Source: a virus. From it: DNA of 64,000 bases. Both the position numbers and the translations under genes were made by a program. Below the pieces are notes generated by a model. The model had not been told where the DNA came from. It made no database searches and was given only the letters and a program-made list of their open reading frames with translations. Of the stretch, positions 6,512 to 44,935 are shown in pieces (position 1 is the stretch's first letter; each line of letters starts with the position of its first letter). The DNA lies in IMG/VR virus record IMGVR_UViG_3300032224_000723, positions 1-64,000 of that record. One strand, given 5' to 3'.

Positions 6512-7240
6512 TTAAGCTGGCGATGATCCGTTGTATCTAGTGGCGTAGTAGTTGTAATTTTGCAAGTGTTCCGCGGCGCTGAGTTCTCTAGTATACAATA
6601 ATGCGGCAGCAATTTTACCTGTGCTTTGATTGGCATTCCCACTATAACTAAAAATTTGCGGAGTTGATGCACTGCTTCTAGCACCCGTTAATGCACTTGT
6701 ACCAACTTGACTACCGTTCATATACAATGTCCAGCCAGTTGAAGTGTTAAAACTCAAACCTACATACATCCATTGGTTGGTTAAAAAAGTAGTAGGGCTA
6801 GAACTAACTTCGAAATAATTTCCGCTATTATTTCCTGCTAGCAAATAAGTACCGCTCGACCCCCACATAGTTTCTTGACCAGTTGATCCTATGATATTAT
6901 TAAAGGTTCCAGAGGAAGTCCATACTACTGCACCTTTACTATAGTTGGTGTTGGCTGGAAATATAGCACTGGCCGCTACTGCACCGTTATTGCCGGGACT
7001 ACTCCAATATGCAGTGCTAGTACCGGTGTTAACTACGGTGCCAAATGTACTACCAGTCGGTACTTGATAGAAAGTAAAATTATTTCCAAGACCACTACTG
7101 TCTGGCCATGTACTACCAGATGCATAGTTTTGCATGTCTAGATTGAACAGCAAATTAGCAGTTACTATGCCGAGTACCGGTGGATTATCAAGTACAACTC
7201 CGCCACTGATTCTAATACCCCCGGTTAATTGAATTGCCAT
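6512..7240 (-). CDS. LamG/concanavalin A-like domain protein (adhesin or fibre)
   Basis: A 242-residue protein on the minus strand. A short N-terminal glycine motif (LTGGIRISGGVVL) precedes a jelly-roll domain: LLFNLDMQNYASGSTWPDSSGLGNNFT, then a central WMYVGLSFNTSTGWTLYMNGSQVG and a final KIAAALLYTRELSAAE. This is the usual pattern of phage LamG/ConA-like glycan-binding domains. Its N-terminal motif resembles the C-terminus of the fibre-like protein at 1483-2589. Upstream on its strand are a CAATAAATAT late box (about 7261-7270) and an AAGGA ribosome site, so it is probably a late virion surface protein. Confidence 0.72.
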   Translation of the reverse strand: MAIQLTGGIRISGGVVLDNPPVLGIVTANLLFNLDMQNYASGSTWPDSSGLGNNFTFYQVPTGSTFGTVVNTGTSTAYWSSPGNNGAVAASAIFPANTNYSKGAVVWTSSGTFNNIIGSTGQETMWGSSGTYLLAGNNSGNYFEVSSSPTTFLTNQWMYVGLSFNTSTGWTLYMNGSQVGTSALTGARSSASTPQIFSYSGNANQSTGKIAAALLYTRELSAAEHLQNYNYYATRYNGSSPA

Positions 7241-8642: not shown

Positions 8643-9059
8643 ATGGCTACTAAAATTAATACTACTTTTCCAGGCTACAGTGCAATACCCACCAGCGTCT
8701 CTGTAACACCAACAACTTCCACTCCCAGTTATACAATCAATCATGGGGGTACCTACCAGATTAATACCACAACCGCTAGTCCATGGGTGACATCTGCTGG
8801 TGGTACTGGCACAAATCCAATGATCCTCGATCAAGGCGGAACTATTCATCTCAAAGGTAAAAATGCCGACATTGATATTAACGGTGTCAGTCTCACAAAG
8901 ACATTGGCTAAAATTGAAGAACGCCTGGCTATTCTAAAACCCAATGCCGCATTAGAAAAAGATTGGGAAGAACTCAAAGTACTGGGCGATGCTTACCGTA
9001 AGCTAGAAGCAGAGATTACGGAAAAAATGAAAACATGGGACATACTCAAAGAAGAATGA
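8643..9059 (+). CDS. Conserved phage virion-type protein with coiled-coil end
   Basis: A 138-residue protein in two parts. The first (to about residue 70) is a Thr/Ser/Pro-rich extended region. The second has GTIHLKGKNADIDINGVSLTKTLAKIEERLAIL followed by a helical, probably coiled-coil stretch ending KTWDILKEE. The DI-x-INGVSL...IEERLAIL block is common in small structural or chaperone-like proteins of T4-like phages. The role is not established. It overlaps the next gene by 4 nt. Confidence 0.6.
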   Translation: MATKINTTFPGYSAIPTSVSVTPTTSTPSYTINHGGTYQINTTTASPWVTSAGGTGTNPMILDQGGTIHLKGKNADIDINGVSLTKTLAKIEERLAILKPNAALEKDWEELKVLGDAYRKLEAEITEKMKTWDILKEE

Positions 9060-9253
9060 ACATCGAAGTCATCAATGACAAATACCGAATATGGTGCGGT
9101 AAGATACCAAGAAACGAAATAGACCAACGACTGCAATGGTGCGTTGATTCCTGGGGAGACAACTGGGGATTCTTTGACACTGTATTTGGTGACACTTGTT
9201 TTGTCTTTTATAGATTGGCGCATGCCAATTGGTTCAAATTAAAATACAGTTGA
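9056..9253 (+). CDS. LKW-array small protein 1
   Basis: 65 residues; start ATG 9056 overlaps the upstream stop (ATGA). It has the two hallmarks shared by the array at 9056-13285: a Trp-Cys block (RLQWCVDSWGDNWGFF) and a C-terminal F-x-F...F-x-L-K-(W/Y) signature, here FVFYRLAHANWFKLKYS. No known family is recognised. First member of the array. The promoter of the next member overlaps its stop codon. Confidence 0.65.
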   Translation: MNIEVINDKYRIWCGKIPRNEIDQRLQWCVDSWGDNWGFFDTVFGDTCFVFYRLAHANWFKLKYS

Positions 9254-9278
9254 CAGAAATATCAAAACATGCTATAAT
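9250..9278 (+). promoter_or_regulatory. Sigma70-type promoter inside the small-gene array, leaderless type
   Basis: TTGACA (9250-9255), 17-bp spacer, TATAAT (9273-9278), a perfect consensus; the next ATG (9285) is six bases downstream. Confidence 0.88.
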
Positions 9279-9284
9279 ATAGGC

Positions 9285-9461
9285 ATGAGTACTGTAACTA
9301 TTAATGGACAAACGACCAGCGTGTTCGATGCAATACAATGGTGTAGCAAAAACTTTGGACAAACATGGGGTGACTTAAAACATCAGTTTCCAGGGTGGCA
9401 CTGGAGATTTAGTTTTAAAGATCCGGAACAGGCAATGCTGTTTGCACTGAAGTGGGCATGA
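9285..9461 (+). CDS. LKW-array small protein 2
   Basis: 58 residues, MSTVTINGQTTSVFDAIQ onward. It contains the Trp-Cys block (IQWCSKNFGQTWGD) and ends FSFKDPEQAMLFALKWA, the clearest form of the array signature. Its promoter lies directly upstream and it has no Shine-Dalgarno. It is below many gene-finders' length limits, but promoter, ATGA overlap with the next member and sequence likeness support it. Confidence 0.72.
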   Translation: MSTVTINGQTTSVFDAIQWCSKNFGQTWGDLKHQFPGWHWRFSFKDPEQAMLFALKWA

Positions 9462-9670
9462 CCAGAAAGTTGAAAATCGTTGCCACAGCAAGTAAGGCTA
9501 TGGAGCTGGCTGAAGAATTAAGATCCGCGGGACTAACTAAACAAGATTTTAGCTGGAAATTTCATCCTAATATCAATGATAGGTTTTTTGGATCTAACGA
9601 ACCTAGTTATGTAATCTTTACTTTTTACGATGATGCTACAGCAACATTTTATGAACTCAAATGGGCTTAA
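9458..9670 (+). CDS. LKW-array small protein 3
   Basis: 70 residues from ATG 9458 (ATGA overlap); a GTG at 9452 is an alternative. The N-terminal half is helical and basic (KLKIVATASKAMELAEELRSAG); the C-terminus VIFTFYDDATATFYELKWA carries the signature. The Trp-Cys block is replaced by DFSWKF. Function unknown. Confidence 0.68.
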   Translation: MTRKLKIVATASKAMELAEELRSAGLTKQDFSWKFHPNINDRFFGSNEPSYVIFTFYDDATATFYELKWA

Positions 9671-9738
9671 TATGCTTACAGTAAGTTTAGTAATTACCAG
9701 TAAATATTGTTACGTGAGCCAAGACCACGTAGACAATA

Positions 9739-10050
9739 ATGAAAACAATAAACAAAGTTTTGTTGGGTTTGGCGACTGCATCAACCATTCTGGCACCAAT
9801 GGTACCTAAGAATGTCAACATCAATATCAACATGGAAGCACCAGGCCTGCCTAAAAAAGAAAGACCATACAAGTTGGTTGAAACTCAATGCAGGCTTGCA
9901 AATCAGTCAACAACCAACACAGGCATGCAAGTGTGTGAATACCACTGCAATGACGGTGACAAGTCCACTGTATACAAAACATTCCGTAGCAATGCTATGA
10001 CATGTCCAGATAAAACAAACGAAAGAATAAAGAAAACTAGCAGGCAGTAA
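9739..10050 (+). CDS. Small exported cysteine-containing protein
   Basis: 103 residues with a signal-like N-terminus (MKTINKVLLGLATASTILAP) and then a polar domain with four Cys (ETQCRLA, QVCEYHCND, MTCPD) that could form two disulfides in the periplasm. No family is recognised. It does not carry the array signature, although it lies inside the array. AGTAAATATT at 9700-9709 is a possible late box 30 bases upstream. It is followed directly, without a gap, by the next array member. Confidence 0.65.
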   Translation: MKTINKVLLGLATASTILAPMVPKNVNININMEAPGLPKKERPYKLVETQCRLANQSTTNTGMQVCEYHCNDGDKSTVYKTFRSNAMTCPDKTNERIKKTSRQ

Positions 10051-10314
10051 ATGGCTAATTCAATCAGGCTTACTACAAGTCAGTGGCACCAAATTCGACA
10101 ACTCATACGAGAAGAATATCCCACACGGGACAGCGTGTTAATAATTCGCAGTGTTATGCAAAGAGAACTGGGATTCACAACTCGATTACACAGAGAATGG
10201 ATTCCAGAATCTGGTGCCGGACAATACGATGGATATGGGAACTATCAAGAGTCAATATATTTGGATTTTGTTGACGACATCAAAGAAACATTTTTTCGAT
10301 TAAAGTATCTGTGA
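10051..10314 (+). CDS. LKW-array small protein 4
   Basis: 87 residues, starting directly after the stop of the exported protein. It ends SIYLDFVDDIKETFFRLKYL, a clear variant of the signature. The N-terminal half is helical and basic (SQWHQIRQLIREEYP); the middle is Gly/Tyr-rich. It overlaps the next start by one base (TGATG). Confidence 0.66.
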   Translation: MANSIRLTTSQWHQIRQLIREEYPTRDSVLIIRSVMQRELGFTTRLHREWIPESGAGQYDGYGNYQESIYLDFVDDIKETFFRLKYL

Positions 10315-10532
10315 TGTATACAACTATAAGAATTAATGATGGTCCGGAAATTGATTGGGACGCCATATGTTATTGGGCAGTGAATCAATTCGGTACTCCG
10401 GGTCTGGAACAACGGTTTATGTTTCTTACACATTCCGAGTGGATGGACTTCTTGTTTGTTAATGAACAAGATGCTATAATGTTTACATTAAAATGGGTGG
10501 GAAATGAAAGAAAAACCAGTACACTTAGATAA
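10314..10532 (+). CDS. LKW-array small protein 5
   Basis: 72 residues from ATG 10314. It has the Trp block (AICYWAVNQFGTPG) and the signature FLFVNEQDAIMFTLKW, here followed by about ten extra residues (VGNERKTSTLR) that overlap the next gene. Translation is probably coupled to the neighbour upstream. Confidence 0.68.
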   Translation: MYTTIRINDGPEIDWDAICYWAVNQFGTPGLEQRFMFLTHSEWMDFLFVNEQDAIMFTLKWVGNERKTSTLR

Positions 10533-10752
10533 ATTGGGCCGTGAACTTAAGGTGGGAGACTGTGTGGCGTACCCGTCACATAATACCTTGTACATTGGCA
10601 CAATAGAAAAACTACACAATAAAATGGTAGCAGTTGCTAAACTGCCTGCTGGTAGATGGGGCGGTTCGTCTAATAAGTATCCATTAGACATGGTACTGTT
10701 GGAAGGATCAGAAGTCACTATGTACGTATTAAAACACAGTATGACTCAATGA
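10504..10752 (+). CDS. Small KOW/SH3-like beta-barrel protein
   Basis: 82 residues that do not belong to the LKW family. HLDKLGRELKVGDCVAYPS, followed by LYIGTIEKLHNKMVAVAKL and PLDMVLLEG, looks like a small SH3/KOW-type barrel seen in T4-like phage hypotheticals. The start overlaps member 5 by 29 bases and has GGTGGG close upstream. It overlaps the next gene by 4 nt. Function unknown. Confidence 0.65.
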   Translation: MKEKPVHLDKLGRELKVGDCVAYPSHNTLYIGTIEKLHNKMVAVAKLPAGRWGGSSNKYPLDMVLLEGSEVTMYVLKHSMTQ

Positions 10753-10994
10753 AGTTTACTGACGTAGTACAAGATCTAATGCAATCGTGGAAGGAAAATA
10801 GATTCATTGTTGCTGGCCCTGAATTAACGGACAATGATCATTTGGTAGTATTGACTAACATTCAATACTGGACTGAACATGCAGATGAATTAACAGAATG
10901 GTGTCGCAATACACCAGGCACAGTACAAGAAGGTATGACTGTGGTGTTTGACAATGATAGTGCATTAACTTTATTTTTATTGAGGTGGTCATGA
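10749..10994 (+). CDS. LKW-array small protein 6
   Basis: 81 residues with the Trp-Cys block (ELTEWCRNTPGT) and the C-terminal MTVVFDNDSALTLFLLRWS, with Arg in place of Lys. ATGA overlaps join it to both neighbours. Confidence 0.7.
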   Translation: MKFTDVVQDLMQSWKENRFIVAGPELTDNDHLVVLTNIQYWTEHADELTEWCRNTPGTVQEGMTVVFDNDSALTLFLLRWS

Positions 10995-11230
10995 TGCTAC
11001 TTGGACACGGCACAGTGTATGGCGCACAGTATTATACTGTGGCTCCGTCCATGGCAGGTGTGTCATGGAGTGAAATGGCGGCATGGTGTAGTGAGATATT
11101 TGGTCCCAGCACTGGAAATATTTGGGGCGGCGGCACCAACGCACCCGGCGAACGTTGGTACCAAAATAATGCCAAGTTTTGGTTCCGTGAAGAAGTAGAT
11201 CGTGATTGGTTTATGCTGAGGTGGCAATGA
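10991..11230 (+). CDS. LKW-array small protein 7
   Basis: 79 residues from ATG 10991 (ATGA overlap; a second ATG follows at 10994). Trp-Cys block SEMAAWCSEIFGPSTGNIW, Gly-rich middle, C-terminus KFWFREEVDRDWFMLRWQ. Unknown function. Confidence 0.7.
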   Translation: MMLLGHGTVYGAQYYTVAPSMAGVSWSEMAAWCSEIFGPSTGNIWGGGTNAPGERWYQNNAKFWFREEVDRDWFMLRWQ

Positions 11231-11469
11231 TAGAATTAGTATTAACTGACAAACAAAAAAATCAATGGCTGAACTACGAGACTGGATATGAACAACTACA
11301 TCCCACTTTTGAAATTATCGATTATATGACGTCGTATAATTACAAATACGGCGAAGATTGGAAATGTAATAAAGTTACCATCTCTGGTCCTAAAATTTCG
11401 GAGCATTGTTACACATTAGTGTTCAACAACGAAAAAATTGCATCAACATTTATTTTAAAATGGACGTAA
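11227..11469 (+). CDS. LKW-array small protein 8
   Basis: 80 residues from ATG 11227 (ATGA). The middle reads IIDYMTSYNYKYGEDWKC and the C-terminus TLVFNNEKIASTFILKWT. It overlaps the next member by 10 bases, the longest overlap between consecutive array members. Confidence 0.7.
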   Translation: MIELVLTDKQKNQWLNYETGYEQLHPTFEIIDYMTSYNYKYGEDWKCNKVTISGPKISEHCYTLVFNNEKIASTFILKWT

Positions 11470-11687
11470 AAATAATACCTATTGCCCCTTATTGGGATAA
11501 CTTACAAGAATACCATCGTAGACACAATCCTGATGATTTAGACTTTTGGGATTGGATTAAACAAGAATATAGTGCGTATCAAGTCTATATTAAACCTACA
11601 CCCAGGGCTGATGGGGAGAAGGATTCTTGTGGTTTAATGTTCAGTGATGAAGATGACGCTGTTATGTTTACACTAAAATGGATATGA
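11460..11687 (+). CDS. LKW-array small protein 9
   Basis: 75 residues. The Trp block is DFWDWIKQEYSAY and the C-terminus LMFSDEDDAVMFTLKWI is close to the family consensus. The start ATG lies in the Trp codon region of the preceding gene's signature, so the signature DNA is used in two frames. Confidence 0.7.
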   Translation: MDVKIIPIAPYWDNLQEYHRRHNPDDLDFWDWIKQEYSAYQVYIKPTPRADGEKDSCGLMFSDEDDAVMFTLKWI

Positions 11688-11875
11688 GATATACTATAAC
11701 GCTGCCACTTAGATCCCATAATAAAGAAACTCCAGCACAGTGGGCCAGAGAACACTGTAAGAGTTACCTTAGTGCAACTTGGCATTGGGACGTTGAAGAT
11801 GAGGGTAGGTCAGAAGCGGATTATTATTTTGCAGATGAAAAAGACGCAATGACATTTTCATTGAGATGGCTATGA
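11684..11875 (+). CDS. LKW-array small protein 10
   Basis: 63 residues from ATG 11684 (ATGA). Trp block TPAQWAREHCKSYLSATWHWD; C-terminus YYFADEKDAMTFSLRWL. It is among the shortest members, in practice the two motifs plus a linker. Confidence 0.7.
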   Translation: MRYTITLPLRSHNKETPAQWAREHCKSYLSATWHWDVEDEGRSEADYYFADEKDAMTFSLRWL

Positions 11876-12129
11876 TGAAGAAGAAAGCATTAAGCGAATC
11901 CAGAGAATCGTATTACGATATAAATCCTAATCTTATATATGTTGCGTACAGTCGAGCTGATTGGTCCGATACTACCCCATGGCTAGAGGAAAATGTGGGA
12001 GAATTTAACGAAACTTGGTATAAACTGGGCAGAGACGCAATTATGTTTTTATCGCCCAATTGGCGGGGCGACGAATACCTGTTTTTACGGGACGAAGATA
12101 GGGCACTTTTCATTTTAAAATGGAGTTAG
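11872..12129 (+). CDS. LKW-array small protein 11
   Basis: 85 residues from ATG 11872 (ATGA). Trp block TTPWLEENVGEFNETWYKLG; C-terminus EYLFLRDEDRALFILKWS. Last member before the amidotransferase-like gene interrupts the array. Confidence 0.7.
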   Translation: MMKKKALSESRESYYDINPNLIYVAYSRADWSDTTPWLEENVGEFNETWYKLGRDAIMFLSPNWRGDEYLFLRDEDRALFILKWS

Positions 12130-12138
12130 GCTAAGTAC

Positions 12139-12158
12139 ATATGACAACTACGTCATAT
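12139..12158. promoter_or_regulatory. Inverted repeat at the amidotransferase start
   Basis: ATATGAC (12139-12145) and GTCATAT (12152-12158) flank AACTAC and end one base before the ATG at 12160. It could be an operator or an mRNA hairpin controlling initiation. Confidence 0.4.
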
Positions 12159-12159
12159 T

Positions 12160-12807
12160 ATGAAAAAGCCTAGAATAGCATTATTCTTACATCAACCCAA
12201 ATGTTCAATACAAAGCGGGAATGGCATTATTCGAGCACTGAGCTCGCACTACGACTTTAAAATTTTTACCAAGCACGAACTGGAACAGGGATTCTTCGAT
12301 GATGTCGACATGGTAGCTTTTCCCGGTGGGTTCGGCGACAGTGAAAGTTTCCACTCATTGTTTAGAACCAATGGCGACCTTGTTAGAGATTTTGTACAAC
12401 GTGGCGGTAGATATTTAGGAATTTGCATGGGTGCATACTGGGCAGGCAGTCATTACTTTGACATACTAGACCAAGTAGATGCAGTACAGTATCTCAGTCG
12501 CCCAGGTACTGACACACGTAGACCACATGCAAAAAATATCAGCATAACTTGGAACGGCGTACCTGACAATATGTTTTGGTATGATGGTTGTGCATTGGTT
12601 GGAGACAAAAATAAATTCGATACGGTAGCTACCTATGCCAACGGAGATGCAATGGCTATCTATCAAAATCGAATTGGCATAATTGGTTGCCATCCAGAAA
12701 GCGAACCTTTTTGGTATAACAGTTACAGTTGGATGAAACCACATTGGCATCATTATCGTCATCATGATCTATTATTGGATTTTGTTGACAGATTAATGAC
12801 AAGATAG
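12160..12807 (+). CDS. Class I glutamine amidotransferase-like protein (BPL_N type)
   Basis: 215 residues. VAFPGGFGDSESFH supplies an early Gly-rich turn, GGRYLGICMGAYWAG the nucleophile elbow (Cys), and IIGCHPESEPFW the His-x-Glu pair near the end. This arrangement is seen in the amidotransferase-like N-terminal domain of eukaryotic biotin-protein ligase and its bacterial relatives. Whether it hydrolyses glutamine or another substrate is unknown. It lies within the small-gene array, and the promoter for the next array member overlaps its 3' end. Confidence 0.75.
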   Translation: MKKPRIALFLHQPKCSIQSGNGIIRALSSHYDFKIFTKHELEQGFFDDVDMVAFPGGFGDSESFHSLFRTNGDLVRDFVQRGGRYLGICMGAYWAGSHYFDILDQVDAVQYLSRPGTDTRRPHAKNISITWNGVPDNMFWYDGCALVGDKNKFDTVATYANGDAMAIYQNRIGIIGCHPESEPFWYNSYSWMKPHWHHYRHHDLLLDFVDRLMTR

Positions 12808-12813
12808 TATAAT
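12785..12813 (+). promoter_or_regulatory. Sigma70-type promoter, leaderless type
   Basis: TTGACA (12785-12790), 17-bp spacer, TATAAT (12808-12813); the ATG at 12819 follows after five bases. Confidence 0.88.
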
Positions 12814-12818
12814 AGTCA

Positions 12819-13067
12819 ATGGCTGGCGTATTACTAAATCCTGAACATTGGGCAGAAGATAGATCTCGTCGTTGGGAATATTGGCGAAATCTTAGAGGCG
12901 CCCGGGACGAATTTTTAATAGAGTGCCCTGACGCAACTTATTTTGGAAATTGGCTGTCAGAAAAATACGGAATCAAATTACACTACGACGCTGACGGTAA
13001 CATCACTGACGAATCCACTATCATAGACGAACAAAAATATTTGTTGTTTCAATTAAAATACCTATGA
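12819..13067 (+). CDS. LKW-array small protein 12
   Basis: 82 residues. Trp block FGNWLSEKYGIKLHYDADG; C-terminus STIIDEQKYLLFQLKYL, a weaker form of the signature with Tyr for Trp. The N-terminus is charged and Trp-rich (RRWEYWRNLRGARDEF). It overlaps the next gene by 4 nt. Confidence 0.66.
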   Translation: MAGVLLNPEHWAEDRSRRWEYWRNLRGARDEFLIECPDATYFGNWLSEKYGIKLHYDADGNITDESTIIDEQKYLLFQLKYL

Positions 13068-13285
13068 ACTTAGTTGTTAAATTTATATCCCCTTTGCGAG
13101 TAGAGATTTGGGCAGCGCCTATGACCATGGATGGACTTAGAGATCATCATATGGAACTAGTACAAGACTGGGTAGAGCAATTAGAGCTTGGTCATAGAAT
13201 GGCATTCAACCAGTGGAAACTTAACGCTGAATCCGCCATGAGTGCATTTGTGCTTTATTGGCACGGAAAACAAATTGACAAATAA
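13064..13285 (+). CDS. LKW-array small protein 13 (divergent)
   Basis: 73 residues with a Trp block (ELVQDWVEQLELG) and a degenerate end (NAESAMSAFVLYWHGKQ) that keeps the spacing of Ala, Phe and Trp. It is assigned to the array mainly by position, size and the ATGA overlap. Confidence 0.58.
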   Translation: MNLVVKFISPLRVEIWAAPMTMDGLRDHHMELVQDWVEQLELGHRMAFNQWKLNAESAMSAFVLYWHGKQIDK

Positions 13286-13300: not shown

Positions 13301-14116
13301 ATGCGTAAAATATTCTTACTATCGTTAATGGTATTGTCTTTGTCTGTACACGCACATTCAAAGCATAAACATCATACCAAACCTAAACACAAAGTTCATG
13401 CAGTAAAAACTGTACAAAGAATAAAAACTTTACCACCTACTGTATTGGTCTATAACAATACACAACACAAGAGTGTTGTCACCGACAATGCAGACACTGT
13501 AAGACCTATGGCCAGTATTACCAAATTAACCACTGCCATGGTGTCATTGGATCATTATAACCTTGCAGATAAGATTCCATTAAACAAGAAAAATTCTATT
13601 ACAGTGGAACAAGCAATGACAAAATTATTAGTGCGTTCAGATAACTCCATGGCCGAGTTGTTAGCAAGAAATTATCCTGGAGGTAGAGATAAGTTTTTAG
13701 AAGCAATGAATGCCAAAGCAAGATCGTTAAATTTATCTGTTACTAGATTCAATGACCCCAGCGGACTAGATGCAGGCAATGTTACCACTGCCACAGAACT
13801 AGCAAACATAGTCACAGCCGCAGGACGTTATCCTTTTATCACACGTATAACGTCACAGCCAGAAGTAACTAGTATTAACACAGTGAAAAATAAAATTCGT
13901 ACAGTAAGTTTACCAAATACTAATAGAACAATATTGTTTGAGTTTGATAACATATTAGTTAGTAAAACAGGATTTACCAATCATGCTGGTCGTTGTTTAG
14001 CCATGTTGGTTGACAATAAGGGCGAACAGTATGTTATAATCATACTTGGAGAACCTAGCAAACAAGCAAGGGACCAAGTAGCAAGAAATTTAATTCAACT
14101 AAGTGAGCACCAATAA
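13301..14116 (+). CDS. D-Ala-D-Ala carboxypeptidase/endopeptidase (peptidase S11, PBP7-like)
   Basis: 271 residues with a signal peptide (MRKIFLLSLMVLSLSVHA), a His/Lys-rich linker and a serine DD-peptidase domain. It has all three active-site motifs: S-x-x-K in MASITKL (near residue 73), S-D-N near 113 and K-T-G in SKTGFTNHAG near 222. This is a low-molecular-weight penicillin-binding protein resembling PBP7/PbpG, acting on peptidoglycan in the periplasm. In a phage it could loosen the wall during infection or lysis, or change the wall of the infected cell. Confidence 0.87.
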   Translation: MRKIFLLSLMVLSLSVHAHSKHKHHTKPKHKVHAVKTVQRIKTLPPTVLVYNNTQHKSVVTDNADTVRPMASITKLTTAMVSLDHYNLADKIPLNKKNSITVEQAMTKLLVRSDNSMAELLARNYPGGRDKFLEAMNAKARSLNLSVTRFNDPSGLDAGNVTTATELANIVTAAGRYPFITRITSQPEVTSINTVKNKIRTVSLPNTNRTILFEFDNILVSKTGFTNHAGRCLAMLVDNKGEQYVIIILGEPSKQARDQVARNLIQLSEHQ

Positions 14117-16161: not shown

Positions 16162-16560
16162 ATGAGTATGCATCTTCATCATCCCAGCCTCAGCCTTAAT
16201 GGTAAAAAGCGTGGCAAAATTAAATTTAAAAGTGCCGAAGCCAAACGTGCCTATGAACAACAAGAACAGGCGTGGAAAGAACTTAAAAACAAATGGGCGT
16301 CTGACATAGAAGATAAAAAGCAGAGCCGTGCAATGAAAGCAGAAACACTGACTTACAAGTTAAGTGCTCCAGTGGGTAGAGATACTGGCCCAAAAATTCC
16401 TAGCTTGGACACAGGTCACACTGGTGCAGTACGCACAAAAGATATTCCCAAATACACTGGCACTAAAATTCTTGGTATTGGTACTATGCACAAAAGCAAT
16501 GCTGTGCCTATTTTCAGTGACGAAGAAGCAGTAGAAATTTCAAGGATGCGCCGTGGCTAA
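16162..16560 (+). CDS. Conserved phage protein with KSNAVPIF...MRRG end
   Basis: 132 residues from ATG 16162 (a TTG six bases earlier is possible). The N-terminus MSMHLHHPSLSLNGKKRGK, the central helical WKELKNKW and the C-terminal GTMHKSNAVPIFSDEEAVEI plus SRMRRG are typical of a widespread phage hypothetical protein. The sequence is basic at the start and short of hydrophobic core. The role is unknown. It overlaps the next gene by 8 bases. Confidence 0.7.
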   Translation: MSMHLHHPSLSLNGKKRGKIKFKSAEAKRAYEQQEQAWKELKNKWASDIEDKKQSRAMKAETLTYKLSAPVGRDTGPKIPSLDTGHTGAVRTKDIPKYTGTKILGIGTMHKSNAVPIFSDEEAVEISRMRRG

Positions 16561-16876
16561 AACTAATCGATGCGTTTATTACTTTGAAGTATACCAAGAC
16601 CGTACAGATTACATCGATTCATGGAAGGCTGGCGTATACTCAGCACAGGGTTATATGAATGGATTTGAAGGTTGGCAAAATCGATTAGCCCTTAACTGTG
16701 ACAGAGTATGGCAGCAAGGTCCCAAGGGTGGTGTTAAGATTGTTAAAAATCGACTCCATCGACACTGGTCCGATAAATCAAACGGGGGTAAACTTGGATA
16801 CGTTACTAACAATAAAGAACTAATGAAAGACTTTGCTTGGATCAAACTGTCAGCAAAAGAGATAAAAGGTCGGTGA
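16553..16876 (+). CDS. Small paired phage protein A, unknown
   Basis: 107 residues. It shares with its downstream neighbour a block W-x-Q-G-P-(K/R)-G-G-V and the end (Y)-x-x-x-N-x-x-x-M-x-x-F-x-W-I-K-L-x-A, showing that the two arose by duplication. It is rich in Trp, Tyr and basic residues. The ending is loosely like the F-x-L-K-W ends of the array upstream, but too weak to join it. Confidence 0.65.
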   Translation: MAKTNRCVYYFEVYQDRTDYIDSWKAGVYSAQGYMNGFEGWQNRLALNCDRVWQQGPKGGVKIVKNRLHRHWSDKSNGGKLGYVTNNKELMKDFAWIKLSAKEIKGR

Positions 16877-17148
16877 AATACAACTACTACGGTTTAAAAG
16901 GCGACTATGCGTGGCACTTGGCCACACAGTCTCATCCACGTGATCTAAGATGGTTTCAGCCGCGCCTGATCGAGTCCAGTGAAGTTGTCTGGTGCCAAGG
17001 CCCCCGAGGCGGTGTGCAAGTAGTTTATGTCAGTGACTGGCAAGGTCCACGGCAGTATGGCTACATTAGTCAAAACAGCAAGGCCATGGAAGAGTTTATG
17101 TGGATCAAATTAAAAGCACAAAGTTTGAATACTAAACTTTGGAACTAA
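16873..17148 (+). CDS. Small paired phage protein B, paralogue of A
   Basis: 91 residues from a GTG at 16873 that overlaps the stop of gene A (GTGA). Key shared parts are VVWCQGPRGGVQVV and YGYISQNSKAMEEFMWIKLKAQ. Basic and Trp-rich. No function can be assigned. Confidence 0.63.
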   Translation: MKYNYYGLKGDYAWHLATQSHPRDLRWFQPRLIESSEVVWCQGPRGGVQVVYVSDWQGPRQYGYISQNSKAMEEFMWIKLKAQSLNTKLWN

Positions 17149-32786: not shown

Positions 32787-33335
32787 TTGAATATTGGACT
32801 CACTCAAAGAGTTCTGTATTATAAAGATAGAGCGTATGATTCAATTGAGCATGGATGGTATTCATACTTAAAAGAACATACGCTTTGTTTTATAGCTAAT
32901 AGAACAGATCAAGATTTCGACAAACTAGCAGACTCATTAGACATATTAATTATTACAGGCGGTGATGATAACGCAATTCGTCGCAGTGTAGAAATTAAAA
33001 TTGCTACGGCTATGTTGGTTAGAAAAAAACCTATATTAGGTGTATGTCATGGAAATTTTTTGTTGACATCTATACTAGGTGGAGAGTTAGGCAATATAGA
33101 AGATCATATGGAAACTATACATCCAGTTTACTATTTTGGTGACGAGCACATTGTAAACAGTTTTCATAATATAAGAATAGTAAAACCACACGATGAAGCT
33201 ACAGTATTAGTTGTGGACCCAGATGGAAATTGTGAAGCGTGGATAGACAAAACACTAGCAGGTATTACATGGCATCCCGAGCGTATGGACAAGCCTTGGA
33301 TACCTGATGAGATTCAAGACCTTTTAAAAATTTAA
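32787..33335 (+). CDS. Class I glutamine amidotransferase-like (peptidase C26 type)
   Basis: 182 residues from a TTG one base after the upstream stop. ILIITGGDDNAIR, ILGVCHGNFLLTSILGG (Cys nucleophile) and AGITWHPERMD (His-x-Glu) are the ordered amidotransferase motifs; no synthase domain is attached. Enzymes of this size hydrolyse gamma-glutamyl amides or supply ammonia to a partner. No partner is identifiable nearby. A second amidotransferase-like gene lies at 12160. Confidence 0.8.
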   Translation: MNIGLTQRVLYYKDRAYDSIEHGWYSYLKEHTLCFIANRTDQDFDKLADSLDILIITGGDDNAIRRSVEIKIATAMLVRKKPILGVCHGNFLLTSILGGELGNIEDHMETIHPVYYFGDEHIVNSFHNIRIVKPHDEATVLVVDPDGNCEAWIDKTLAGITWHPERMDKPWIPDEIQDLLKI

Positions 33336-41771: not shown

Positions 41772-41800
41772 AAAAGGCAGCTTGACCACTGCCTTTTTTT
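41772..41800 (+). terminator. Rho-independent terminator overlapping the next promoter
   Basis: 9-bp stem AAAAGGCAG (41772-41780) / CTGCCTTTT (41789-41797), loop CTTGACCA, T tract to 41800. The loop contains the TTGACC -35 element of the dnaJ-like promoter. Confidence 0.88.
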
Positions 41801-41810
41801 GTTGTATAAT
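41782..41810 (+). promoter_or_regulatory. Sigma70-type promoter built into a terminator, leaderless type
   Basis: TTGACC (41782-41787) sits in the terminator loop; 17-bp spacer made of the stem's second arm and T tract; TATAAT (41805-41810). The ATG at 41817 is six bases on. Confidence 0.8.
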
Positions 41811-41816
41811 GTATCA

Positions 41817-42650
41817 ATGAATCCATATGAGATTTTGGGTGTTGCTAAAACTGCAACCCCTGAAGAAATTAAAAAAACCTATCGTAAACTAGCTGCTCAG
41901 CATCATCCTGACCGCGGCGGCGACACTGCCAAATTCCAAGAAATACAAGCCGCATACGATACATTGAGTGATCCCGAAAAACGTGCTCAATTAGATAACC
42001 CAGTTCACCAAATGGGGCCAGGACATTTCCACTTTGATTTTGGCAATGGTGACATTAATGATATATTTGCAAGGTTTAATTTTGGCGGTGGTGATCCCTT
42101 TGGACAGTTTAGACAACAGCAACCTAGACGCAATAGAGATGTTAGAGCCGAATTAAATGTAGGCTTGCAAGAAACACTGAATGAAATAACAAAAACTCTA
42201 AATATAAAAACATCAGAATCACAACGACAAAACATCGATGTTAAGATTCCCAGAGGTATTACCAGTGGTACTACAATAAAGTATCCAGGATTGGGCGACA
42301 ACTTATTTGGAAATCTTCCCCCTGGAGACTTGTATCTAACCGTAAATGTATTACAGCACCCAACATATAAAGTCAGCGGATTAGATTTGGTAATGGGCTT
42401 GACAATAGATTGTTTTCAAGCTATACTAGGTTGTGAGCAAACAATCGTAGGATTGGATAATAAAGTATTCACCATACAAACACCGCAAGGTTGTCAACCA
42501 GGAACTAAACTAAAGATACCAGGAGAAGGATTATGGGGATTTCAACAAGATATCAAAGGCAGTCTATTTGTGGAAGTAGCAGTAACAGTTCCTAGAAATT
42601 TAACAGAAGAACAACGACAATTAATTCAAACAATACAAAACCAACGGTAA
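41817..42650 (+). CDS. DnaJ/CbpA-like co-chaperone
   Basis: 277 residues from ATG 41817. The J-domain [27 protein letters not shown] carries the essential His30-Pro31-Asp32 (HHPDRGG). A Gly/Phe-rich linker ([24 protein letters not shown]) and two DnaJ C-terminal beta domains ([42 protein letters not shown]) follow; no zinc finger, so it is CbpA-like. It stimulates DnaK ATPase. Its own promoter lies directly upstream. It precedes the ClpA-like gene. Confidence 0.9.
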
Positions 42651-42658: not shown

Positions 42659-44935
42659 ATGCTTCAAACAAATCCAGAAATTAACACAATCATTGAAACA
42701 GCTACAGAATGTGCTGCCACTAAGAATCACGAATATGTGACTCTTGAACACTTGTTGTTGGCCATGGTCAACCATCCACCATTTAAACATATTATTGAAC
42801 AATTTGGTGCAGATGCCAGTGGCTTGATTGAAGACTTAGAATCTTATTTAGATCTTCAGACATATTTGATTAGCCAGGGCTATGATATTGTGCCTAAGAA
42901 AACACACAGTTTAGAACGTGTGTTTAATCGTGCATTTACACAAGTACTGTTTAGTGGACGCCAACACATGCAGGTCATTGACTTGTTCCTCAGTATTATG
43001 AGTGAGGAAAAAAGTCATGCAAGATACTATCTTGTCAAATACGGTTTGGAGAGAAAGAAACTTGTTGACTTTTGGAACTCAAATTACACTGAACAAAAAG
43101 AAAAGAAAAAGTCCAAAACTAATGCAGCTGATACAATTCTGCAAGAGTATTGTGAGAATTTAAATGAACTAGCAGAATCAGGAGAAATTGATCCTGTGAT
43201 CGGACGTGAAAACGAAATTGACGAAATTACACAAGTCCTAGCAAAACGCAATAAAAGCAATGTACTAATGGTAGGCGATCCTGGTGTAGGTAAAACTGCC
43301 ATTGCAGAAGGACTTGCACTGAACATTGTCACAGGAGATGTTCCAGACTATCTTAAAGATCACACTGTTTATAATTTAGACATTGGTAGTTTACTTGCTG
43401 GTAGTAAGTACCGTGGAGAGTTTGAAGAAAAACTCAAAGACGTTATCAAAGCATTGAACATCAAAGGCAAGGCTATTTTGTTTATTGATGAAGCACATCA
43501 AATGCGTGGTGCAGGATCAGGCAGTCAAAGCGGTCCAGACTTTGCTAACATGATTAAGCCTGCATTAACTAAAGGACGCATCAAAGTCATTGCCAGCACT
43601 ACATGGGAAGAATACACACAGAGCTTTGAGAAAGATCGTGCGCTGATGCGCCGCTTTTATAGACTTACTGTTGAAGAACCTACTCCTGAAGTAGCAAAAC
43701 AAATTCTACGTGGACTTAAAGATAACTTTGAAGAATTCCATGGTGGAACCATCACAGAAGAAGCTATTGATGCCGCAGTGGATCTTAGTGTACGCTATCA
43801 AACAGATAAGCGGTTGCCCGACAAAGCAATTGACTTGATTGATACTTCGGCAGCACGACTAAAGATTACTACAACAGACTTCGTTGTACGCAAGAGTCAT
43901 ATTATTGATGCTATCAGTAAATTTACAAAGATTCCAGTTGAGCAATTAGACACAGTTGCAGTTAAGAATCTTGAAAATCTAGAAGGTAACATCAAAGGCA
44001 AACTGTACGGACAAGATTCCGCAGTTACCGATGTATTGGATAAAATTTATGTCAGTAGGGCAGGATTAAAATCATTGAACAAACCTGTGGGTAGTTTCTT
44101 GTTCCTTGGACCTACTGGTACTGGTAAGACTGAGTTAGCAAAATTGCTGGCCGAAAATCTCGGGATGAAACTATTAAGATATGATATGAGTGAATACCAA
44201 GAGCGTCATTCAGTTGCAAAATTGATTGGTGCTCCCCCCGGGTATGTAGGTTACGATGATGGTAACTTGGGTGGTGGTTTATTAATTAGTGATGTAGAAA
44301 AGAATCCAAACTGTGTAATACTGTTTGATGAAGTAGAAAAAGCACACCCAGATGTCAGTAATATTCTTCTCAGTCTTATGGATGAAGGTATTGTTACCAG
44401 TAGCAATGGCAAGAAAGCAGACTGCCGCAATGCAGTTGTTATCTTAACTAGTAATTTGGGTGCCGCTGACAATGAACGCAACAGCATCGGTTTTGGTCGT
44501 AGTTTAGAAAAGTCAGGCGAGGATGATAAAGCTGTTAAAGACTTCTTTAAACCCGAGTTCCGAAACAGACTAGATGCTATTATTAAATTCAACAAATTAG
44601 ATCAAACCAGCATCCGTCGTATTGTTGACAAGTTTATTTTAGACATGAACGATTTGATCAGTGACAAACATATTCAAGTTTTGTTAACTGACAAGGCTGC
44701 TGACTATATTATTAGTCAAGGTTATGATAACAAAATGGGCGCAAGGCCACTGGCACGTAAGATTAACGAGTTGATTAAAGTGCCGTTGAGTAAACGTATC
44801 TTATTTGACAACATCACAAACTGTGTGGTCACAGTGGATTACACAGATAAGATTGAATTTGACGTTAAAGAGAATTTTGCTCTCTACGGCAACACTACTA
44901 TGATTGACGAAAACGGCTATGTTGTTGTGGAGTAA
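42659..44935 (+). CDS. clpA: ClpA-like AAA+ unfoldase
   Basis: 758 residues, the length of ClpA. N-domain with [19 protein letters not shown]+ 1 with Walker [16 protein letters not shown] (about 206), Walker [13 protein letters not shown] and arginine finger region; AAA+ 2 with [16 protein letters not shown] (about 484), [23 protein letters not shown] and [13 protein letters not shown]. The long ClpB coiled-coil middle domain is absent. An I-G-F tripeptide (NSIGFGRS) before PEFRNRLD sits where ClpA/ClpX have the ClpP-binding loop, so the protein may dock on host ClpP. With a phage tmRNA tag ending ALAA, it could steer tagged proteins to degradation. Confidence 0.93.

Follow-up and report, generated by a model that had tools for sequence, protein, structure and literature searches.

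A tandem array of small phage genes of one family whose C-terminal codons also serve the next gene

Thirteen tandem genes on the + strand of a 157-kb uncultured phage, at positions 9056-13285 of the window (the whole stretch analysed, 64 kb), encode proteins of a single family that are 58-87 aa long with starts corrected (Table 1). The K/R codon of their C-terminal motif is tuned to serve in addition as the ribosome-binding site of the gene that follows, and related phages differ by the gain, loss or replacement of individual genes at this joint. What appears to be new here is the dual use of the L-(K/R)-W codons, the exchange of single genes at the joint, and promoters that suggest early expression. 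The sequence-only reading, in which a conserved C-terminal interaction motif was joined to varied partner-specific parts, is partly supported overall.

Table 1. Coordinates of the array genes, promoters and an example joint in the window.
Feature	Position	Strand	Evidence and remarks
Family member 1, 65 aa	9056..9253	+	Profile E 6e-5; ends ...NWFKLKYS; K/R codon AAA; uncoupled to next gene
Perfect sigma-70 promoter TTGACA-17-TATAAT, TG before -10	9250..9278	+	Ahead of member 2
Family member 2, 58 aa	9285..9461	+	Profile E 2.5e-10; modelled core protein, AlphaFold2 pLDDT 86.2; ATGA overlap with member 3
Family member 3, 70 aa	9458..9670	+	Profile E 1.1e-7; best hits L002, L004, L014
Unrelated interleaved gene, 103 aa	9739..10050	+	No Pfam/PHROG match; signal-peptide-like N-terminus (by eye)
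Family member 4, 87 aa, divergent	10051..10314	+	Reciprocal best hits L012, L051, L047 (E 8e-12 to 2e-22); other-phage profile E 0.76
Family member 5, 72-73 aa, ATG 10314 or GTG 10311	10314..10532	+	Profile E 4.7e-11; best hits L002-L004, L047, L048
Unrelated interleaved gene, 82 aa	10504..10752	+	phrog_2251 (unknown function) E 2.4e-10
Family member 6, 81 aa	10749..10994	+	Profile E 9.5e-6; core topology of the second model agrees
Family member 7, 79 aa	10991..11230	+	Profile E 9.6e-12; ATGA overlaps both sides; LRW = CTGAGGTGG; relatives in 56 viral loci (search with orthologous query)
Family member 8, 80 aa	11227..11469	+	Profile E 1.1e-3
Family member 9, 75 aa	11460..11687	+	Profile E 2.3e-8; start is the ATG made by AAA-TGG of member 8
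Family member 10, 63 aa, alternative start 11678	11684..11875	+	Profile E 7.8e-19; 69-78% identity to L002-L004 counterparts; dN/dS 0.25-0.31
Family member 11, 85 aa, alternative start 11866	11872..12129	+	Profile E 1.6e-7
Unrelated interleaved gene, BPL_N / glutamine-amidotransferase-like	12160..12807	+	Pfam PF09825 E 2.9e-10
Perfect sigma-70 promoter TTGACA-17-TATAAT	12785..12813	+	Ahead of member 12
Family member 12, 82 aa	12819..13067	+	Profile E 1.5e-4; best hits L002, L049, L047; ATGA overlap with member 13
Family member 13, 73 aa, most divergent	13064..13285	+	Reciprocal best hits L012, L015, L051 (E 2e-8 to 4e-7); no profile match
Example dual-use joint	11215..11230	+	Codons L-R-W-Q and stop; GAGGTGG ahead of overlapping ATGA

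Membership and distribution of the family

A family profile derived exclusively from other phages (33 sequences, L002-L005) matched 11 of the 13 members among the open reading frames of the window (E 8e-19 to 1.1e-3), and all 11 matches lay inside 9002-13067. The next real open reading frame in the window scored E 0.18, the best of 20 full shuffles E 0.025 and the reversed set E 0.62. The remaining two members (10051 and 13064) were joined to the family by reciprocal best hits in other arrays, and three unrelated genes are interleaved with the members. The claim of at least 13 small genes of one family, for which a profile search had been proposed as a check, therefore holds: the full profile links members above both the shuffled and the reversed controls. 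A version of the profile limited to the C-terminal tail recovered 10 of the same 11 members at E<0.003 but was weaker than the full profile, with shuffles reaching 0.014.

Relatives are present in many uncultured phage contigs, one of which carries 28 matches in 7.3 kb. With duplicates removed, 421 members were found in 55 uncultured records, and matches per record vary from 2 to more than 20. Members also occur in the jumbo phages Phosso, Atu_ph07 and PA5oct, where they are scattered, form no single array and show few AGG joints; Pseudomonas phages of the PA5oct type, which grow on strain PAO1, carry three (EST35_0247, 0274, 0275). An alignment of the family (A2) had no match in T4, P-SSM2, Cr30, phiM12, phiM9, HTVC008M, PhiW-14 or a 156-kb Acinetobacter phage record. 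No match to phage records was obtained in a nucleotide search with 8 kb, nor did tblastn with member 7 of the window return anything from phages at E 10. A genome-contig scan with one query found no relative, a result with little bearing on bacterial genomes generally; another alignment, A1, held sequences too varied to be used in scanning contigs.

No curated model in Pfam, PHROG or NCBIfam was common to 53 members: at most two of the 53 matched any one Pfam model (best E 0.00095), and at most one matched any model of PHROG (best E 0.0056) or NCBIfam (best E 0.0065). For the member listed in full, no model reached the Pfam cut-off, PADLOC gave 0 families for the 53 members at E 0.01, and PHROG scans with single proteins gave weak and inconsistent matches. 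The view that no described family covers these proteins is thus upheld by all four collections. A literature search for tandem small phage paralogues, most subscription papers apart, returned nothing on the present family, which also goes unmentioned in the accessible parts of PMC7824862, PMC6102473, PMC5348500, PMC6873191 and PMC4503421.

Predicted fold

Structure prediction, likewise proposed as a check, was run for two members from separate alignments, and both models have the same E-H-E-E-H core, that is, one small beta-alpha-beta-beta-alpha unit. The model of the 58-aa member 2 was the stronger (pTM 0.68; pLDDT in Table 1), and the second, made from a 7-sequence subfamily alignment, has the same core order at moderate confidence (pLDDT 76, with three of five models at pLDDT 45-48). 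The modelled topology is ferredoxin-like without the fourth strand. What had been read as a variable N-terminus followed by a conserved motif is better described as one diverged domain of about 60 aa, and the supposed stand-alone interaction motif on unrelated bodies is the predicted last strand and helix of a single fold; on the alignments and models we rejected the idea that the N-terminal parts are unrelated modules.

Both models are matched by predicted proteins of uncultured Caudovirales. The RRM, ACT and ferredoxin-like superfamilies have a similar order of elements, whereas their fourth strand is absent from the present model. Weak structural neighbours include RRM, ACT and papillomavirus E2 DNA-binding domains, with a best Foldseek match at E 0.056 and none below 0.001; the ACT match (VIA Z 7.7, rmsd 1.9, 56 residues) and those of the second model (Z 5.9 or less) lie in the uninformative range of Z<8. 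The weak neighbours T3SS subunits, E2, ACT, arginine kinase and gyrase were set aside as common arrangements by the tool's own scale, and the best sequence-profile match among solved structures (E 0.084) was not credible. Because conservation among members lies mainly in the hydrophobic core, with no shared catalytic residue or conserved polar set that would suggest a common enzyme, the products are most likely small binding proteins, for which the unpaired first strand would be a plausible docking edge.

The coding joint and single-gene exchange

Overlaps between genes, noticed at the outset, were counted by eye at 8 of the 12 pairs of neighbours: six are of the ATGA type, one is TGATG and one spans 10 nt, the downstream ATG in this last case lying inside the AAA-TGG of LKW. 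At such joints the L-(K/R)-W codons supply the Shine-Dalgarno sequence of the next, overlapping gene. Among the 421 members, 110 of which were dropped, AGG stood at the K/R position in 139 of 249 coupled genes as against 14 of 62 uncoupled genes (Fisher 2e-6), with a background of 106 of 2780 K/R codons in gene bodies. The contrast disappeared when starts were allowed from -13 to +12 (141 of 282 versus 12 of 29, p=0.44), because chance starts and the -10 class are then counted as coupled. In a smaller set the excess gave p=0.0017 in one test and 0.005 in another, and p=0.11 against genes without any near start. VEVAM-like residues before starts, considered as an intergenic repeat, proved to be the last codons of the previous gene in another frame.

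Comparison of related phages showed whole genes coming and going at the joint. In one array (L004, same record as L055) a whole additional gene is flanked by two copies of GTTGAGGTGGCAATGA, whereas L002 carries a single copy at that place; L056 and L057 are 98% identical on both flanks and differ by one whole gene at the joint; and between L002 and L003 a gene is replaced by another family member, identity breaking and resuming at the joint. High-identity blocks ended within 25 nt of a member stop in 71 of 217 cases (12% expected), with the caveat that the ends depend on one another and that exchanges in any case tend to keep to gene borders. By our criteria, both borders lay at the joint in 39 of 141 block gaps, and neither did in 41. 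Two genes of the pair L010/L013 differ in age within the mosaic, with dS of 0.04 versus 0.48.

It could be argued that C-terminal conservation is mainly a DNA signal, a ribosome-binding site and recombination joint, and that the proteins are largely selfish or dispensable cargo, as the AGG excess, the short repeats in direct orientation at the joints (in one array as long as 24 nt) and the turnover of cassettes would suggest. We consider this very unlikely, given that uncoupled members retain F, L and W with other K/R codons (AAA, AGA, CGC), that the conserved helix motif and W block sit upstream of the joint, that orthologous lineages persist across distant phages (reciprocal best hits), and that dN/dS is mostly that of purifying selection (<0.35 in 16 of 20 pairs with finite dS; exceptions are 1.1 in one close pair and 0.56-0.67 in three others). 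Integrons likewise exchange single genes in an array downstream of a promoter; compared with integron cassettes, the joint here is short and inside coding sequence.

Expression and probable function

Perfect sigma-70 sites number 3 in the 64-kb window, where 0.07 are expected; two lie in the array, which bears out the claim of at least two internal consensus promoters, and the third precedes a DNA ligase-like gene. The T4-type late promoter TATAAATA lies 14-26 nt before other genes (1469, 3541, 40950), and none was found in the array. Because this sequence is without enrichment in the window (3 found, 6.4 expected), the late-promoter argument draws on position only. Taken together, the pair of perfect sigma-70 sites and the lack of a T4-type late promoter in the array are suggestive of early expression.

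Several known systems resemble the array in part. The host-takeover module of Bacillus phage SPO1 consists of many small genes, packed closely together and expressed early, with strong promoters and ribosome-binding sites, and several of its products inhibit host processes (PMC6873191, accessible part). The present array is similar in its 13 small genes, two perfect sigma-70 promoters and GAGGTGG before ATGA, and probably in its early timing, whereas the SPO1 module is not described in that part as one protein family or as having a dual-use C-terminal joint, and host inhibition is shown for the SPO1 products but only proposed for those of the present array. T4-type phages are reported to shuffle genes between relatives through short repeated regulatory sequences, the PeSLs (Arbiol 2010 and Comeau 2014, as cited in PMC4503421). 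There the element is a promoter plus stem-loop, but here it is coding, a gene end with the Shine-Dalgarno sequence and start of the next gene; a PeSL-type early promoter and stem-loop between swapped genes does not describe the array, which has only two perfect promoters for 13 genes and no intergenic space at most joints. In Bacillus phage G, likewise a very large phage, a single family of small proteins has undergone lineage-specific expansion (about 35 zinc-ribbon copies), although its zinc-ribbon fold and proposed DNA binding are unlike the present family (PMC7824862, accessible part).

On balance we favour an array of cassettes that is expressed early, is prone to recombination and encodes small binding proteins, probably directed against host or defence targets. 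Early expression and a host-directed role are supported indirectly by the sigma-70 promoters without a late promoter, the turnover of single genes between near-identical phages and the lack of a shared catalytic residue. We think it unlikely that the members are instead nucleic-acid-binding regulators, small RRM-like domains that tune expression on phage or host RNA or DNA. The ferredoxin-like fold, its weak neighbours and a match of the second model to the T4 MotA C-terminal domain (Z 5.1) point that way, but every structural match is in the uninformative range, and the proteins are neutral to acidic (pI <7 in 12 of the 13 in the window; median net charge -1 over 210 family tails of 75 aa). 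Overlapping, coupled genes and the missing fourth strand would also accord with a hetero-oligomer assembled through the open beta edge, its amounts balanced by coupled translation; this seems quite unlikely, as a fixed complex would hardly tolerate a membership that shifts gene by gene between near-identical phages or ranges so widely between records. That the array encodes virion or other late structural proteins, as tail-like repeat proteins within a few kb might hint (1483-2589, 6512-7240; by eye), is scarcely credible in view of its host-type promoters and lack of TATAAATA, the small size of the proteins and their high turnover.

In the cassette reading, each early-expressed gene would encode one compact beta-alpha-beta-beta-alpha domain, and its last codons, F-x-L-(K/R)-W-x, would do two jobs, ending the last helix and, as TTG AGG TGG nn ATGA, providing the Shine-Dalgarno sequence and stop-start overlap for the next gene. 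Since a similar short sequence stands at most joints, recombination there, the presumed route to the outcomes seen in the alignments, would add, drop or replace one complete gene while the operon stays translatable. Each lineage would bind a target of its own and be produced early in order to disable host or defence functions. More tentatively, the array may be a plug-and-play arsenal of one-fold mini-protein binders, in which the C-terminal codons act simultaneously as protein core, as ribosome-binding site and as recombination joint. A phage population could then exchange host- or defence-targeting genes singly, and every new order would remain translatable from one or two promoters active early.

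Small genes of unknown function number in the hundreds in large phages; the present family assigns several hundred such genes to one fold class and supplies a profile for finding more. Swapped singly at a short, translation-starting DNA joint, the genes resemble an exchangeable toolkit for early use, probably against the host cell, and the joint offers phages a simple route to swapping individual genes within a coupled operon. Should the products bind host or defence proteins, such arrays would amount to ready lists of candidate inhibitors, and comparison of near-identical phages would tell which inhibitors are under change.

Thirteen genes of one family

An array of thirteen short tandem proteins, joined mostly by ATGA overlaps, had been proposed in the sequence-only reading. 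All thirteen family genes are present (members 1 to 13, 5′ to 3′; 58–87 aa), and three unrelated genes lie among them. Of the 12 adjacent family pairs, 8 overlap, 6 of these by ATGA. The member 9 start (11460) is an ATG arising within AAA-TGG codons of member 8.

With member 10 as query, five loci were recovered from the viral collection, each with its own array. A profile was then built from 33 sequences of four loci only (L002–L005), and because these were picked by C-terminal pattern, the fair test is the window, whose sequences were excluded from training. Among window ORFs, this profile recovered 11 of the 13 members at E values of 8e-19 to 1.1e-3, all within the array, compared with 0.18 for the next real ORF and 0.025 for the best sequence when all window ORFs were shuffled 20 times. 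The profile missed members 4 and 13, which are reciprocal best hits with profile members of other arrays. A profile of the C-terminal motif alone also linked most members (10 of the same 11 at E<0.003) but separated them less well, with shuffled sequences down to 0.014. The profile matches, together with the reciprocal best hits, show that the 13 window genes are one family. Selection is mostly constraining by dN/dS: of the 20 close pairs that have a finite dS, 16 are at <0.35, three at 0.56–0.67 and one at 1.1; dS was saturated in a 21st pair.

Structure prediction, suggested earlier as a way to expose unrelated folds, returned the same core from two separate alignments, and the family has one predicted fold. 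The AlphaFold2 model of member 2, from an alignment with 52 relatives (pLDDT 86.2, pTM 0.68), has a strand (2–7), a helix (10–27), two strands (30–34 and 39–44) and a helix (47–57), with the W block as first helix and the C-terminal motif as third strand and last helix. Member 6 with six orthologs gave this core plus an N-terminal extension (pLDDT 76.2; 2 of 5 models good, 3 poor). Matches to the fold were weak in the PDB; those in BFVD, the best with E values of 3e-5 and 4.9e-5, are uncharacterised proteins from uncultured Caudovirales. Most conserved positions hold aromatic or aliphatic residues, to which the last helix adds A, D/E and K/R, and nothing points to a shared active site.

Features of the array, its surroundings and related records (window positions unless stated)
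Feature	Coordinates	Strand
Family array	9056-13285	+
Unrelated gene in array	9739 (start)	+
Unrelated gene in array	10504 (start)	+
Unrelated gene in array, BPL_N amidotransferase-like	12160-12807	+
D-Ala-D-Ala carboxypeptidase	13301-14116	
Small paralogue pair	16553-16876, 16837-17148	
Second amidotransferase-like protein	32787-33335	
DnaJ-like gene	41799-42650	
ClpA-like gene	42659-44935	
TATAAATA (downstream gene)	1469 (1483), 3541 (3567), 40950 (40976)	
Distant family member, full record	94314-94655 (L017 10314-10655)	
Distant family member, full record	95975-96283 (L017 11975-12283)	
ORF with two apparent domain copies	L008 10005-10490	
tRNA-Pyl(cta), Phosso	446731-446806 (L007 2910-2985)	

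Several other features of the window were also recorded. The second amidotransferase-like protein was recognised by eye, and the carboxypeptidase (peptidase S11, Pfam E 2.5e-31), an unusual phage cargo, lies immediately 3′ of the array. The overlapping paralogues, unrelated to the array family, have a common ...GPRGGV...GY(V/I)...N...F.WIKL pattern by eye. The DnaJ-like (by eye) and ClpA-like genes are neighbours, and the latter's best phage relative (45% identical) is in Sinorhizobium phage Phosso, which also carries the array family.

A proposed dual-use joint and the exchange of single genes

The joint, that is, the last codons F-x-L-(K/R)-W of one gene and the overlapping start of the next, typically reads TTT nnn TTG AGG TGG nn ATGA (79 aligned coupled ends), and GAGGTGG occupies the expected Shine-Dalgarno position for the overlapping ATG. 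If GAGGTGG is the Shine-Dalgarno sequence of the next gene, joints at which that gene begins should favour AGG. The comparison drew on 421 members from 55 non-redundant uncultured records, with 110 members left out because the motif was absent or the downstream sequence too short. AGG filled the K/R position in 139 of 249 coupled members, compared with 14 of 62 without coupling (p 2e-6) and with 106 of 2780 K/R codons within gene bodies; an earlier, smaller set gave 61 of 114 versus 6 of 29 (p 0.0017). Under wider coupling limits the coupled–uncoupled contrast was weaker (p 0.005, 0.11) or gone (p 0.44); the excess over gene bodies holds under every coupling definition. F, L and W also persist in uncoupled members, which use other codons for K/R, so the motif is a genuine protein feature by itself. 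Gene coupling and codon bias at the joint are evident in the aligned sequences, and the joint codons may form a testable dual code (protein end and candidate Shine-Dalgarno).

Comparison of related arrays documents exchange of single genes. In an otherwise alike stretch, L004 has one extra gene, complete and with a copy of the 16-base GTTGAGGTGGCAATGA on each side, where L002 has a single copy and joined flanks. L056 and L057 differ by one gene at a joint, with 98% identity either side, and the L057 joint is a hybrid of L056's two. L002 and L003 hold different family members in one slot, identity stopping and restarting at joints, and L010 and L013 switch partner within a gene, resuming in the C-terminal block. 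Blocks of high identity among 52 non-redundant arrays had 217 ends, of which 71 lay ≤25 nt from a member stop versus 12% at random (p 2e-15, the ends not being independent). The 141 gaps between adjacent blocks comprised 44 insertions/deletions and 97 replacements; by limits that we set, both borders fell at joints in 16 and 23 of these, respectively (39 in all), and neither in 41, indicating that joints are favoured but not exclusive. Close arrays (L047 and L048) share their gene order; distant ones (L051 and the window) do not. Two genes of L010/L013 have dS of 0.038 and 0.478, a disparity expected if cassettes have separate histories.

Distribution, expression timing and possible role

Iterated searching found 30 loci with 210 matches and afterwards 56 more loci with 425, every one of the 425 on the seed gene's strand. 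At E 0.01, the window's record has 12 matches, virus records G001 to G005 have 9, 20, 14, 5 and 10, another ten uncultured records between 2 and 20 apiece, Phosso 23, Agrobacterium phage Atu_ph07 6 and Pseudomonas phage PA5oct 3; eight other phages searched had none. L051, at a contig end, has 28 matches in 7.3 kb, and in Phosso and Atu_ph07 members are dispersed across the genome. As supposed earlier, the family appears undescribed, in that 53 members had no consistent match in PHROGs, Pfam, PADLOC or NCBIfam; it is real, widespread and without a described family model in these four libraries.

The full record (156,993 bases, the window covering 1–64000) holds two more, distant members ∼82 kb downstream of the array. 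One L008 ORF apparently has two tandem fused domain copies (by eye), and Phosso, a 469-kb phage, has an annotated amber-reading tRNA amid small genes.

At least two internal consensus promoters had been claimed. The window has three perfect TTGACA-16/18-TATAAT sites (0.07 expected), two of them in the array and one 5′ of a DNA ligase-like gene (named by eye). TATAAATA, the T4 late −10 element, showed no enrichment in the window (3 copies) and was absent from the array in the window scan. Its copies lie 14–26 nt upstream of genes, placed like T4 late promoters. Given perfect sigma-70 promoters in the array and TATAAATA only elsewhere, early transcription of the array by host polymerase is likely.

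The array proteins, probably expressed early, would act as binders of host or defence targets. Among the systems compared, the SPO1 host-takeover module (PMC6873191) offers the closest working model and PeSL shuffling (as cited in PMC4503421) the closest evolutionary one; unlike in PeSL shuffling, the repeated element of the array is coding. Distinct lineages of the family persist over long distances, which argues for distinct targets of the array proteins rather than redundancy.
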